Below, piece by piece: positions 33,759 to 46,753 of a stretch of DNA of 64,000 bases. Numbering within the stretch: the stretch's first letter is position 1; each line of letters begins with the position of its first letter. Source of the stretch: Apibacter adventoris (GTDB lineage: Bacteria; Bacteroidota; Bacteroidia; Flavobacteriales; Weeksellaceae); the NCBI RefSeq assembly GCF_002964975.1, contig NZ_PSZM01000046.1, positions 186,001 through 250,000 on the forward strand, given 5' to 3'. A model generated the notes under the pieces. The model searched no databases. It was not told where the DNA came from and saw only the letters and a program-made list of their open reading frames with translations. Made by a program: the position numbers and the translations under genes.

Positions 33759-34805
33759 TTAATTGTTTTCAGGTCTTAGCTCTCTAACTACTGTTCCGGT
33801 TCTCCACATTTCACTTTCACGAAGAGCTTTTAATTCTTCGTTTAGTTTTTCACGGTAATCTGGTTTAGAGTTGGTATCAATAGATCGTTGTGCTTCATTT
33901 CCAGAAGCAACTTCAGCATATAATTTTGCAAATACGGGTTTGGTAGCGTCATGAAAAGGACCCATCCAATCAAGGGCTCCTCTTTGTGCAGTAGTAGAGC
34001 AGTTGGCATACATCCAGTCCATTCCTTTTTCTGCAAATAAAGGCATTAAAGATTGAGTAAGTTCTTCTACAGTTTCATTGAACGCTTCGGAAGGGGTGTG
34101 ACCGTTTTCGCGTAATACCTCATACTGAGCTAATAAAATTCCCTGAATAGCTCCCATTAAAGTACCTCTTTCTCCAGTAAGATCAGAATATACTTCGCGT
34201 TTAAAGTCTGTTTCAAATAAATATCCAGATCCAACTCCTATTCCTAAAGCAATTGTTCTTTCTTTGGCTTTTCCGGTAGCATCTTGGTAAATAGCATAGC
34301 TTGAGTTAATTCCCCTTCCTTCTAAAAACATACGTCTCAGGCTGGTTCCGGAACCTTTAGGGGCTACTAGAATTACATCTACATCAGAAGGAGGAACAAT
34401 TCCGGTTCTATCATTAAAAGTAATTCCGAAACCATGGGAAAAATATAGAGCTTTTCCTGCAGTTAAATGAGGTTTTAACTTGGGCCAAACTTGAATTTGC
34501 GCAGCATCAGATAAAAGGTATTGAATAATAGTACCTTTGGCCGCTGCTTCTTCAATTTCAAATAAGGTTTCTCCGGGTACCCAACCGTCAGCAACAGCTT
34601 TATCCCAGGTTTTACTAGCTTTTCTTTGTCCTACAATTACATTAAATCCGTTATCACGTAAGTTTAATGCCTGTCCCGGACCTTGTACTCCATATCCGAT
34701 TACGGCAATTGTTTCGTTTTTTAATATTTCTCTTGCTTTTTCTAAAGGATATTCTTCACGAGTAACAACATTTTCTGTTACTCCTCCAAAATTCATTTTT
34801 GCCAT
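33759..34805 (-). CDS. ilvC: Ketol-acid reductoisomerase
   Basis: 348 residues, class I (short) size. IGYGVQGPGQALNLRDNG is the NADPH-binding GxGxxG segment; FSHGFGITF and the C-terminal knotted helical part with the metal-binding acids (DLTGERGTLMG, EETVEELTQ) are present. Converts acetohydroxy acids to dihydroxy acids for valine, leucine and isoleucine. Last gene of ilvD-ilvB-ilvN-ilvC, 12 bases after ilvN. Confidence 0.95.
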   Translation of the reverse strand: MAKMNFGGVTENVVTREEYPLEKAREILKNETIAVIGYGVQGPGQALNLRDNGFNVIVGQRKASKTWDKAVADGWVPGETLFEIEEAAAKGTIIQYLLSDAAQIQVWPKLKPHLTAGKALYFSHGFGITFNDRTGIVPPSDVDVILVAPKGSGTSLRRMFLEGRGINSSYAIYQDATGKAKERTIALGIGVGSGYLFETDFKREVYSDLTGERGTLMGAIQGILLAQYEVLRENGHTPSEAFNETVEELTQSLMPLFAEKGMDWMYANCSTTAQRGALDWMGPFHDATKPVFAKLYAEVASGNEAQRSIDTNSKPDYREKLNEELKALRESEMWRTGTVVRELRPENN

Positions 34806-34817
34806 GATATTTTTTAT

Positions 34818-35384
34818 TTAATTATTTTTAATTATTGATTCTTTTGCTTTAAGTTCTGACAGCATATCACTCAATCGTTCAATTTTTGAAGTGTTTATTG
34901 CAATTCTACCGGAACGTATAAATTGTAATACTTGAATGGTTTTACTTAATTCTATAAAAAGAGCTTGCGTATCAGAATAGTGTCCGGTTTTTTGAATGAC
35001 TACACATACTTCATTTATTTCAAGGATTTGAGCATTGTATTTTCTAATTAAATTTTCAACGGAACCTATTTTTAAAAATTCAGGTGTTGAAAGTTTGTAT
35101 AAGGCAATTTCCTGATATATCAGCTCATCATCTGTATTGTAATAGGATTTTAATACGTCTACACTTTTATCTATTTGCTTTACTACTTTTTCAATGGTTT
35201 CTTTATTACACTTAACGGTTATGGTAAATTTGTGAATTCCTTCTATAGCAGAAGGTGATACGGATAAAGTTTCAATGTTTAGAAACCTTCGAGTAAAAAC
35301 ACTTGTTATTTGCCCTAAAAGTCCTACGGTATTTTCAGAGAAAATTGTTACCGTATATACGGTTTTATTGGTTGTTTTTTCCAT
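34818..35384 (-). CDS. ilvN: Acetolactate synthase regulatory subunit
   Basis: 188 residues from the ATG at 35384; a TTG seven codons earlier is possible. The N-terminal ACT domain (TVTIFSENTVGLLGQITSVFTRR) binds valine in characterised relatives; a C-terminal subunit-contact domain follows. Activates and feedback-controls IlvB. Longer than the E. coli 83-residue IlvN/IlvM, matching the IlvH-type. Confidence 0.92.
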   Translation of the reverse strand: MEKTTNKTVYTVTIFSENTVGLLGQITSVFTRRFLNIETLSVSPSAIEGIHKFTITVKCNKETIEKVVKQIDKSVDVLKSYYNTDDELIYQEIALYKLSTPEFLKIGSVENLIRKYNAQILEINEVCVVIQKTGHYSDTQALFIELSKTIQVLQFIRSGRIAINTSKIERLSDMLSELKAKESIIKNN

Positions 35385-35443
35385 GAATATTTTGTTGTTT
35401 CCCAAGATTTATTTCTAAAAATTGGTTTTATTAATTAATGAAA

Positions 35444-37153
35444 TTATACTTTTTTAGATTCCCCTAATAATATATTAGTAACACAGGTTCCGGCAGGAAC
35501 CATAGGGTAAACCATTCCTTGTAATTCAACCTGTACATCTAATAAATAAGGTCCTTTGTGAGTAATCATTTCTTTTATAGCCTCATCTAATTCTTCTCTC
35601 TTTTTAATTGTACGAGAGGTTATTTTGTAAGCTTTAGCAATCGCTGCAAAATCAGGATTGGTCATAATAGTTTCAGAGTATCTTTCATCGAAAAATAATT
35701 CCTGCCATTGACGAACCATACCTAAAAAATGATTATTTAAAATAATTATTTTTACGTTTATATTGTATTGCATAATGGTGCCTAGTTCTTGTAATGTCAT
35801 CTGAAATCCTCCATCTCCTGAGAATAAACATACAGTTCTTTCAGGGTTACCAATTTTAGCTCCTATAGCTGCTGGTAATCCAAACCCCATAGTGCCTAAC
35901 CCACCTGAAGTTATGACACTTCGGGTTTTTTTGTATTTAAAGTAACGTACACCCATCATTTGATGCTGCCCTACATCAGTTACAAGAATTCCATCATTAT
36001 GTGTTGCTTCAGAAACTTTTTGTACTACTTCACCCATTTTTATTCCTCCCGAATCAGGATATACTTCGTCTTTGATAACAGCTTCAAATTCTTCTTTCTG
36101 GTAATTTTTAAAACTATTCCTCCACTCTGTATGCTTATTTTCACTAACTAGTTTAGATACCTCGCATAAAGTTTTTTTAGCATCTCCTAATACCTTAACT
36201 GTAGTTTTGACATTCTTATCTATTTCAGATGGGTCTATATCAAAATGAATAATTTTAGCTTGTTTGGCATAGGTGTTTAAGTCCCCGGTTACCCGATCGT
36301 CAAAACGCATTCCTATGGCTATTAATAAATCACACTCATTAGTTTTCATATTTGGAGCTACATTTCCATGCATTCCTAAGAGGCCTACATTTAATGGATG
36401 TTCTGAAGGTAAGGCAGATAATCCTAGCATTGTAGAAGCTCCGGGTATATCTGCTTTTTCTAACAAAATTTTTAATTCTTCTTCTGCATTACCTAGTATA
36501 ACCCCTTGACCTATTAATGCCAATGGCCTTTTAGATTCATTAATAAGTTTTGCAGCCTTTTGTATGTCCTCTTTATTTAGGTCAGGATTAGGTTGATAAC
36601 TTCTTATAAAATTCATTTTCTGATAAGAAAATTCTAATAAGCCTTGTTGTGCATCTTTGGTTATATCTATAACTACAGGTCCTTTACGGCCTTTATTGGC
36701 TATGTAAAAAGCTCTTGCTATAATTTTAGGAATATCCTCGGCTTTTCTTACCTGATATGCCCATTTGCTAATAGGTTTAGTGATACCCACTACGTCTGCT
36801 TCCTGAAAGGCATCACTACCTAATAATCCGGAAAATACTTGTCCAGTAAGAACTACTAATGGGGTACTGTCCATCATAGCATCGGCAATACCTGTGACTG
36901 TATTGGTTGCTCCCGGACCGGAAGTTACAAGAACTACACCCGGTTTTCCGGTTACACGAGCATAACCTTGTGCTGCATGAGCAGCAGCTTGTTCATGTCT
37001 GACTAAGTAGTGATTTATTTTATCTTTATAATCGTATAAGGCATCAAATACTGGCATAATTGCTCCGCCCGGATATCCGAAAATCGTATCTACTCCTTCG
37101 GCAATTAGTGAATGAATGAGAGCCTCGCTTCCAGAAATTTTATTGTTACTCAT
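35444..37153 (-). CDS. ilvB: Acetolactate synthase catalytic subunit
   Basis: 569 residues. GYPGGAIMPVFDAL and RHEQAAAHAAQGYAR (catalytic Glu) are in the N-terminal domain; the C-terminal thiamine-diphosphate motif runs from GDGGFQMTLQELGT to the asparagine of LNNHF. Makes acetolactate or acetohydroxybutyrate. Follows ilvD after 21 bases. Confidence 0.95.
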   Translation of the reverse strand: MSNNKISGSEALIHSLIAEGVDTIFGYPGGAIMPVFDALYDYKDKINHYLVRHEQAAAHAAQGYARVTGKPGVVLVTSGPGATNTVTGIADAMMDSTPLVVLTGQVFSGLLGSDAFQEADVVGITKPISKWAYQVRKAEDIPKIIARAFYIANKGRKGPVVIDITKDAQQGLLEFSYQKMNFIRSYQPNPDLNKEDIQKAAKLINESKRPLALIGQGVILGNAEEELKILLEKADIPGASTMLGLSALPSEHPLNVGLLGMHGNVAPNMKTNECDLLIAIGMRFDDRVTGDLNTYAKQAKIIHFDIDPSEIDKNVKTTVKVLGDAKKTLCEVSKLVSENKHTEWRNSFKNYQKEEFEAVIKDEVYPDSGGIKMGEVVQKVSEATHNDGILVTDVGQHQMMGVRYFKYKKTRSVITSGGLGTMGFGLPAAIGAKIGNPERTVCLFSGDGGFQMTLQELGTIMQYNINVKIIILNNHFLGMVRQWQELFFDERYSETIMTNPDFAAIAKAYKITSRTIKKREELDEAIKEMITHKGPYLLDVQVELQGMVYPMVPAGTCVTNILLGESKKV

Positions 37154-37174: not shown

Positions 37175-39004
37175 TTATTTTATTAACCTTACCGCACCTA
37201 AGTCTGCAGAGCTTACCATACTGGCATAAGCTTTTAAAGCTTTGGATATTTTTCGTTCTCTATTGGGTTTAAATGCTTTTTCGCCTTTGGATAATTCTTG
37301 TTGTCTGCGGAATTCCAGTTCTTTTTCTGATATTTTTACATTAATGGAACGATTGGGAATGTCTATTTCTATTATATCACCATCTTCTACCAATCCTATA
37401 GCTCCACCGGCAGCAGCCTCCGGTGAAACGTGACCAATAGATAATCCAGAAGTTCCTCCGGAAAATCTACCATCTGTTATCAAAGCACATTCTTTTCCCA
37501 GGTGTCTAGATTTTATGTATGAGGTAGGATAAAGCATTTCTTGCATTCCAGGTCCGCCTTTAGGACCCTCATAGGTAATAATTACTACATCTCCGGCTTG
37601 TACTTTTCCTTCTAATATACCGACACAAGCATCATCCTGAGAATGAAAAACTTTAGCAGTTCCGGTAAATTTAAATATACTTTCATCAACACCTGCGGTT
37701 TTAACTACGCAGCCGTTTAGTGCTATATTTCCTTTTAAAATTGCTAATCCTCCATCTTTGGTATATGCATGTTCTATATCTCTTATGCAGCCTTTTGTAC
37801 GATCTGTATCTAATGTTGGGTATGTATTGTTTTGTGATCCCATTATTAAATTAAATTTATTACCCGGAGCAGATTTATATAAATCTACAGCTCTGTTTTC
37901 TGGATTTTCTTTATTAATTGTATATTTTTCTATGGCTTGTTCTAGGGTAATTCCTTCTATTCTAGATACTTGGGTATCAATAAGATTTCCTTTAGCTAAC
38001 TCCCCTAAAATACCTAATATACCTCCGGCTCTATTTACATCTTGTATGTGATATTTGGCTGTATTAGGAGCAACTTTGCATAGACAAGGTGTTTTTCTGG
38101 ATAAAGCATCAATATCATCCATAGTAAAATCAACTCCTGCTTCATTAGCTATTGCTAAAAGGTGAAGTATTGTATTCGTTGATCCGCCCATGGCTATATC
38201 TAATGTCATAGAATTTAAAAAGGCTTGTTTAGTGGCTATGTTTAAGGGTAACACAGAATCATCCCCATCTCTGTAATATTTATAAGCATTTTCTATTATA
38301 AGTTTTGCTGCATCTTTGAATAGTTTTTTTCTATGCGAATGCGTGGCTACAATAGTTCCGTTACCCGGTAAGGCAAGTCCTATAGCTTCGTTTAGGCAGT
38401 TCATGGAGTTAGCAGTAAACATGCCAGAACAAGAGCCACAGGTGGGACAAGCCATTCTTTCAATAGCGTTTACTTCCTTATCAGAGACTGTATCGTCTGC
38501 AGATTTAATCATGGCATCAATTAAATCAAGATGCTGGTTATTATATTCTCCAGCTTCCATGGGACCTCCGGATACAAAGATTGTGGGAATGTTTAAGCGC
38601 ATGGTTGCCATTAACATACCGGGGGTTATTTTATCACAATTGCTGATGCATATCATAGCATCTGCTTTATGTGCATTTACCATATATTCTACACTGTCAG
38701 CGATAAGATCTCGGGATGGTAGGGAATATAACATTCCATCATGTCCCATGGCTATCCCATCATCAATAGCTATCGTATTGAATTCAGCAGCAAAACATCC
38801 ATGTTTTTCTATTTCGGATTTAACGTATTGTCCTATTTCATGTAAATGTACATGTCCTGGAACAAATTGTGTAAAAGAGTTAACTATGGCAATTAAAGGT
38901 TTTCCCATTTGTTCTTCTTTCATTCCATTAGCTCTCCATAAAGCTCTTGCTCCTGCCATTCTTCTGCCTTGTGTACTACTATGGCTTCTTAGTTGGTTTT
39001 TCAT
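37175..39004 (-). CDS. ilvD: Dihydroxy-acid dehydratase
   Basis: 609 residues from the ATG at 39004. The frame is open upstream to 39103, but that extension runs through the attenuator terminator and is not coding. Iron-sulphur cysteines are visible in [13 protein letters not shown] and [17 protein letters not shown]. Produces the 2-oxo acids of valine and isoleucine. First structural gene of the ilv operon; 30 bases separate its start from the attenuator's U-run. Confidence 0.95.
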
Positions 39005-39033: not shown

Positions 39034-39119
39034 AAAAAACCCTTTTTCTAGAATCAGAAAAAGGGATATATGAATATATTTTTAAACTACAATAGAAACA
39101 CACTACATTCCTTTTTCTG
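39034..39119 (-). promoter_or_regulatory. Transcription attenuator of the ilv operon
   Basis: On the minus strand a 10-bp terminator hairpin, CCCTTTTTCT-GATTCT-AGAAAAAGGG (39065 to 39040), is followed at once by TTTTTT and lies just before ilvD. The segment CAGAAAAAGG at 39119-39110, which begins two bases after the leader-peptide stop, is perfectly complementary over 10 bp to the terminator's 5' arm plus one base (39064-39055) and would form a competing antiterminator. The segment GTTCCT at the end of the leader gene can pair with AGGAAT next to that segment, giving a protector helix. This is the arrangement of ribosome-mediated attenuation. Confidence 0.85.
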
Positions 39120-39120
39120 T

Positions 39121-39171
39121 TTAGGAACCAATGACCAGAATGAGAGTGACAATGTAGTTGTGTAATAGCAT
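39121..39171 (-). CDS. ilv leader peptide
   Basis: Minus-strand gene of 16 codons, [16 protein letters not shown], then TAA. Nine of 16 residues are Leu (4), Ile (3) or Val (2). Codons used include CTA, CTC, CTG and GTC, which are uncommon in this AT-rich genome; scarce control codons sharpen ribosome stalling in known attenuators. It begins about 15 bases after the expected transcription start and ends two bases before the antiterminator segment. Confidence 0.85.
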
Positions 39172-39194
39172 AAGTATTTTTTTAAATCACAATT

Positions 39195-39226
39195 CAAAAT
39201 TAAAATAGTTTTTTGTTATATCCAAA
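39195..39226 (-). promoter_or_regulatory. Promoter of the ilv operon
   Basis: On the minus strand TTTG (39226-39223), 20-base spacer, TAATTTTG (39202-39195): a full match to the Bacteroidetes -33/-7 pattern. Transcription would start near 39188, 15-20 bases before the leader peptide. Confidence 0.7.
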
Positions 39227-46620: not shown

Positions 46621-46705
46621 AAACAAAAAAGCCTTCTCAGTTAAGTGAGAAAGGCTTTTTTATATTTTGGATCATTTATAACATAAGCATTTACTCACTC
46701 TGAGA
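46621..46705 (-). promoter_or_regulatory. Transcription attenuator of the leu operon
   Basis: On the minus strand the terminator GCCTTTCTCA-CTTAAC-TGAGAAGGC (one bulged T, 46655 to 46631) is followed by TTTTTT and sits directly before leuA. The segment TCTCAGAGTGAG (46705-46694), which forms codons 17-20 of the leader peptide, can pair over 12 bp with CTCACT-taa-CTGAGA (46649-46635, a 3-base bulge), destroying the terminator. A ribosome stalled at the Ile/Leu run would leave this segment free; one that reaches the stop would cover it. This is the logic of attenuation, with different sequence from the ilv attenuator. Confidence 0.85.
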
Positions 46706-46753
46706 TTGTCCCAGAATCAGAATAATGCTGATAATGTTAGTAAATAATGACAT
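46691..46753 (-). CDS. leu leader peptide
   Basis: Minus-strand gene of 20 codons, MSLFTNIISIILILGQSQSE, then TAA. Five Ile and three Leu, seven of them within eight codons (7-14), but no Val. CTG, a rare codon in this genome, is used for two of the three Leu. Its last codons form the antiterminator segment. Confidence 0.85.
   Translation of the reverse strand: MSLFTNIISIILILGQSQSE

Follow-up and report, generated by a model that had tools for sequence, protein, structure and literature searches.

The closest described systems are the attenuators of the enterobacterial ilvGMEDA, ilvBN, leu, trp and his operons, whose well-established features serve here for comparison. Attenuation across bacteria was reportedly surveyed by Lopatovskaya in 2010 (cited in PMC4833913). 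Outside Proteobacteria and Actinobacteria, leader peptides had yet to be demonstrated as far as the authors of a paper from that year were aware (PMC2965389). In the actinobacterium Streptomyces, leader-codon substitutions in the ilvB leader were without effect despite a similar layout (PMC1262725), so layout by itself does not prove attenuation. For Bacteroidota, leader-like short ORFs have been mentioned in Bacteroides thetaiotaomicron (PMC7366714), and the transcriptome of Flavobacterium psychrophilum yielded strong clues that leader-peptide attenuators precede amino-acid operons (PMC9723704). A preliminary description of the DNA analyzed here had called such an architecture little described in this lineage, which is a fair assessment, if not an absolute one given the flavobacterial clues.

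Here, we report on the leader region of the ilvDBNC operon in Apibacter adventoris, contained in a window of 64,000 nucleotides (contig NZ_PSZM01000046.1, positions 186,001 to 250,000). Judging by its anatomy, its conservation, the compensatory changes in its helices and its geometry, we consider it highly probable that this leader is a classical ribosome-mediated transcription attenuator, in which ribosome stalling and premature termination would respond to amino-acid supply.

Anatomy of the region upstream of ilvD

The attenuator was read directly from the sequence and lies in its entirety upstream of ilvD, on the minus strand (Table 1). Its promoter, its 16-codon leader with nine Leu, Ile or Val residues, and its 10-bp terminator with a U-run are all found as the preliminary description had listed them. 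The promoter elements are separated by a spacer of 20 nt and fit TTTG / TAnnTTTG, which we take to be the Bacteroidota promoter pattern. The candidate translated leader extends from an ATG at 39171 to a TAA stop codon at 39123-39121. Ribosomes of Bacteroidota rely little on Shine-Dalgarno sequences, and no Shine-Dalgarno-like site was seen before this leader. The antiterminator strand CAGAAAAAGG is perfectly complementary to CCTTTTTCTG (39064-39055), as had been claimed, and begins one base, rather than two, after the leader stop. Antiterminator and terminator are mutually exclusive, the terminator 5' arm being common to both. The terminator stem, CCCTTTTTCT/AGAAAAAGGG, comprises 10 perfect pairs, or 11 counting a closing G-U; it is the only terminator-like site between 38900 and 39700, where 0.2 would be expected by chance, and folding of the leader RNA lies 3.95 sd below shuffles. 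A possible protector helix, AACTACA/TGTAGTT, is kept in most of the genus, with a score (18.4 versus 14.5 for shuffles, sd 2.7) that is statistically weak.

Table 1. Features of the ilvD and leuA leader regions and of the ilvDBNC genes (window coordinates)
Feature	Positions	Strand	Basis
-33 promoter element TTTG	39223-39226	-	Read directly; kept in 9/9 genus genomes
-7 promoter element TAATTTTG (TAnnTTTG)	39195-39202	-	Read directly; TAnnTTTG retained in genus alignment
Candidate leader peptide, control codons including CTC ATT CTG GTC ATT	39121-39171	-	Read directly; homologous Leu/Ile/Val-rich leaders in relatives
Possible protector helix, 5' side AACTACA, within leader codons	39153-39159	-	Pairs with 39091-39085; weakly supported
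Antiterminator 5' strand CAGAAAAAGG	39110-39119	-	Perfect complement of 39064-39055; helix covaries in 39 sequences
Possible protector helix, 3' side TGTAGTT	39085-39091	-	Not clearly above shuffles
Terminator 5' arm / antiterminator 3' strand CCCTTTTTCT	39056-39065	-	Terminator search; covariation of both helices
Terminator 3' arm AGAAAAAGGG (39049-39040) and T6 run (39039-39034)	39034-39049	-	Terminator search; covariation
ilvD, dihydroxy-acid dehydratase, first gene of controlled operon	37175-39004	-	NCBIfam PRK12448 and TIGR00110 above cut-off
ilvB, acetolactate synthase large subunit	35444-37153	-	TIGR00118 above cut-off
ilvN/ilvH, acetolactate synthase small subunit	34818-35405	-	TIGR00119 above cut-off
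ilvC, ketol-acid reductoisomerase	33759-34805	-	TIGR00465 above cut-off
Second attenuator in window: leuA leader peptide MSLFTNIISIILILGQSQSE and stop	46691-46753	-	Sequence; conserved in 9/9 genus genomes
leuA attenuator terminator	46625-46660	-	Sequence; second-best match of the ilvD covariance model in whole genome

Small ORFs rich in Leu, Ile and Val are common at this base composition (26 in the window versus ~14 per shuffled window), which could favor a chance arrangement of A+T-rich intergenic DNA. However, none of 60 control windows obtained by dinucleotide-preserving shuffling contained such an ORF with a terminator suitably spaced behind it, and under strict criteria only the ilvD locus of the real window also carried an antiterminator of at least 8 bases. 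A chance origin is already refuted by the phylum-wide conservation with compensatory changes reported below, and we consider its probability negligible.

Upstream of the attenuator are leuA, leuC, leuD, a gene for a CimA-like citramalate synthase (its score being under the cut-off of the CimA model), and leuB, as assigned by NCBIfam. Direct reading of the sequence shows that leuB is equipped with a perfect inverted repeat and T-run of its own, AAAAAAAGACTTCT/AGAAGTCTTTTTTT, so ilvD probably forms a separate transcription unit. The genus carries an IlvD protein of a Bacteroidales-like type (PRK12448). In the rest of its family, most genera have either a distant type (~35% identical) or none; exchange or differential loss are possible explanations for this distribution.

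Conservation and paired change of the competing helices

The preliminary description had made its interpretation hinge on the conservation of leader peptide and competing helices in relatives. Leader, antiterminator strand at the leader stop, terminator, and promoter are all present in 9/9 genomes of the genus, and four order-level relatives, whose IlvD proteins are 67-73% identical, also carry the leader and both helices. A scan of named genomes gave 80 loci, and most Bacteroidales among those checked (Bacteroides, Phocaeicola, Tannerella, Paludibacter, Alistipes, and others) keep the attenuator, with leaders of 15-32 codons, about half of them Leu/Ile/Val, and a terminator core of GCCTTTCTC...GAGAAAGGC. 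The same scan found no attenuator in Desulfobulbaceae, spirochaetes, and other non-Bacteroidota with related IlvD, nor in many Prevotellaceae from the rumen that share the IlvD type. Leu/Ile/Val leaders are also present at four loci of same-family genomes that have the other IlvD type.

Covariation of the helices, which had been proposed as a check, was counted in an alignment of 39 sequences. Two-sided, pairing-preserving changes occur in 11/14 terminator pairs and 7/10 antiterminator pairs, counts that are inflated by kinship of the sequences, and 0/500 shuffles reached any of five measures. Given this inflation, sliding and swapping of the helix arms provide better controls: terminator pairing fell from 89% to 38-68% when the partner was slid out of register, and own pairs scored a mean of 23.6 versus 18.96 when arms were permuted between species (sd 0.48, maximum 20.4; 500 permutations). 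Conservation and compensatory change in both helices thus lend support to the original interpretation of this region as a ribosome-mediated attenuator.

These data also bear on translation coupling, by which the leader would act as a uORF passing ribosomes to ilvD through reinitiation, rather than by transcription termination. Leader-gene reinitiation has been put forward for bacteria, Bacteroidetes among them, where the distance peaks at 11-14 bp (PMC4833913); here, however, 116 nt separate the leader stop from the ilvD start downstream. Given that distance and a terminator that covaries and is followed by a U-run, we regard coupling as very improbable and retain transcription attenuation as the preferred interpretation.

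One core of the helix arms in the alignment, GAGAAAGG/CCTTTCTC, is nearly identical from the genus to Bacteroidales and is common to the leuA and ilvD attenuators. Because the shared arm has to pair with two partners, pairing is under a three-way constraint, which may explain the conserved core, as may shared ancestry or another constraint. The idea that GAGAAAGG acts as a Shine-Dalgarno mimic that matches the 16S tail was dropped, as the pattern of the 16S end was not found in five genomes (from which rRNA is perhaps absent) and three-way pairing may suffice.

Ribosome position, control codons and proposed mechanism

The effect of ribosome position was predicted by folding the transcript as far as the last base of the terminator 5' arm, while every nucleotide through the 11th beyond the A-site codon was masked; a ribosome footprint of 9-13 nt ahead of this codon was assumed. 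Across 39 loci, the predicted probability of the antiterminator averaged 0.81 with the ribosome at Leu/Ile/Val codons versus 0.02 at the stop codon. At the ilvD locus of the window, it was 0.9 through Val13, 0.8 at Ile14, 0.5 at Gly15, 0.1 at Ser16, and 0 at the stop. Ahead of the occlusion point, 60% of codons specify Leu, Ile, or Val, compared with 15% beyond it; this holds for footprints of 9, 11, and 13 nt. As the mean without a ribosome was 0.51, some species may possess a protector structure. In some relatives, for example at two of the loci, the antiterminator is predicted to be weak.

Rare codons are a known feature of the control region in enterobacterial leu. The corresponding suggestion for Leu and Val codons at ilvD was supported: GTC accounts for 6.2% of Val codons in 39 CDS of the window versus 12/17 in the nine leaders of the genus, and CTG for 4.3% of Leu codons versus 8/43, with CTC and CTA at 2.1% and 9.0% of Leu codons in the same CDS. 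The theory of rare control codons is treated in PMC1183508.

We propose that RNA polymerase starts near 39190 and is followed by a ribosome translating the leader. If charged Leu, Val, or Ile tRNA is scarce, the ribosome would stall in CTC-ATT-CTG-GTC-ATT (codons 10-14) and leave CAGAAAAAGG free to pair with the emerging CCTTTTTCTG, which would block the terminator and allow transcription of ilvD. When amino acids are plentiful, the ribosome would reach the stop codon and cover CAGAAAAAGG, in which case CCCTTTTTCT would pair with AGAAAAAGGG and transcription would end at the T-run near 39034.

Further leaders and comparison with known systems

A second attenuator, absent from the preliminary description, precedes leuA in the same window. 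Its antiterminator strand AGTGAG (46699-46694), at the leader stop, pairs with CTCACT (46649-46644), and compensatory change is seen across 9/9 genomes of the genus. The Ile codons of its leader would fit the citramalate synthase of the isoleucine route in that operon. A covariance model trained on ilvD attenuators alone, with leuA outside the training set, ranked the ilvD and leuA attenuators as the top two sites of the whole genome (E 1.8e-4 and 0.002; next 0.11). Across the phylum, the model is unspecific: about 11 of the best 30 loci are attenuators by our own reading and the rest are ordinary terminators, many matched on both strands, and the tally of 57/296 is not usable as a prevalence.

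A His-rich leader (MIQFHLHHHHLQTYTFR in this genome, at ~235 kb on contig 1) with a terminator precedes hisG in 9/9 genomes of the genus. In other Bacteroidota, cognate leaders were found before a thrA-like gene (Thr/Ile; MTINNTIITTIITTGIKDGGR) and before trpE-like genes (several of them Trp-rich), at four loci in all, and the covariance model also led to leaders before ilvE or ilvN-like genes; these gene names are from reading N-termini. The match between leader residues and product, Leu/Ile at leuA and His at hisG as well as Thr/Ile and Trp elsewhere, supports attenuation, while no leader or attenuator was found before thrA (six genomes of the genus) or trpE, and we count these operons against it.

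The same leaders help to judge whether the terminator is instead constitutive or under another signal, such as an RNA-binding protein, a T-box, or a riboswitch, with the leader ORF being incidental or encoding an unrelated small hydrophobic membrane peptide. Peptides rich in Leu, Ile, and Val are also hydrophobic, and a lone terminator could merely tune basal expression. However, the hisG, trpE, and thrA leaders are rich in His, Trp, and Thr/Ile, and so are not merely hydrophobic; moreover, the antiterminator strand is near or at the leader stop in 39 loci, with the control codons ending just ahead of the occlusion point. Searches with Rfam at gathering thresholds, including the T-box, riboswitch, and PyrR covariance models, matched no family to the ilvD leader or to any other locus scanned, the best weak match being PyrR (28.4 bits versus a cut-off of 54). 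We therefore consider another signal very unlikely, and attenuation by the translating ribosome remains our explanation for the ilvD terminator.

Several Bacteroidota families carry leader attenuators in tandem before ilvE, ilvN-like genes, or ilvD; these ten arrays consist of two successive units, and one of them (L160) apparently of three. We lean towards the view that Bacteroidota have an uncatalogued, phylum-wide leader-attenuator regulon (ilvD, leuA, ilvE, ilvN, hisG, thrA, and trpE), stacked in several families as two to three complete leader-terminator units in series. If so, transcription must clear successive amino-acid checks before one operon, and the arrays offer a way into serial attenuation. 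The titles and abstracts of the literature on tandem leader attenuators held nothing relevant. Branched-chain attenuation through coupled transcription and translation appears, by covariation and not by eye alone, to have been kept through Bacteroidota, including gut Bacteroides and Phocaeicola. Leaders of the ilvD type provide a direct handle on ribosome-polymerase coupling in this phylum by means of simple reporters.

The F. psychrophilum candidates belong to the same broad lineage, and leader-peptide attenuation was likewise inferred upstream of amino-acid operons; the main text of that report contains no ilv case or structure, whereas the ilvD helices were checked here by phylum-wide covariation (PMC9723704). 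Actinobacterial ilvB leaders, including those of Corynebacterium ilvBNC, share the Leu/Ile/Val-rich leader and the terminator before an ilv operon, but are found in a different phylum and have ilvB as first gene (PMC1262725; PMC11857589; PMC10272879). The ilvD leader resembles the enterobacterial ilvGMEDA, ilvBN, leu, trp, and his attenuators in its promoter, its short leader rich in the product amino acids, the antiterminator strand at the leader stop, the mutually exclusive antiterminator and terminator, the U-run, and the rare control codons. In contrast to these, it belongs to a different phylum, ilvD comes first in the operon, a Shine-Dalgarno-like site is not visible, and the protector hairpin is weakly supported; the likeness considered here is one of layout. 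The proposed attenuation mechanism of the ilvD leader is the textbook one, and its phylum-wide extent and the tandem arrays are the less familiar parts.
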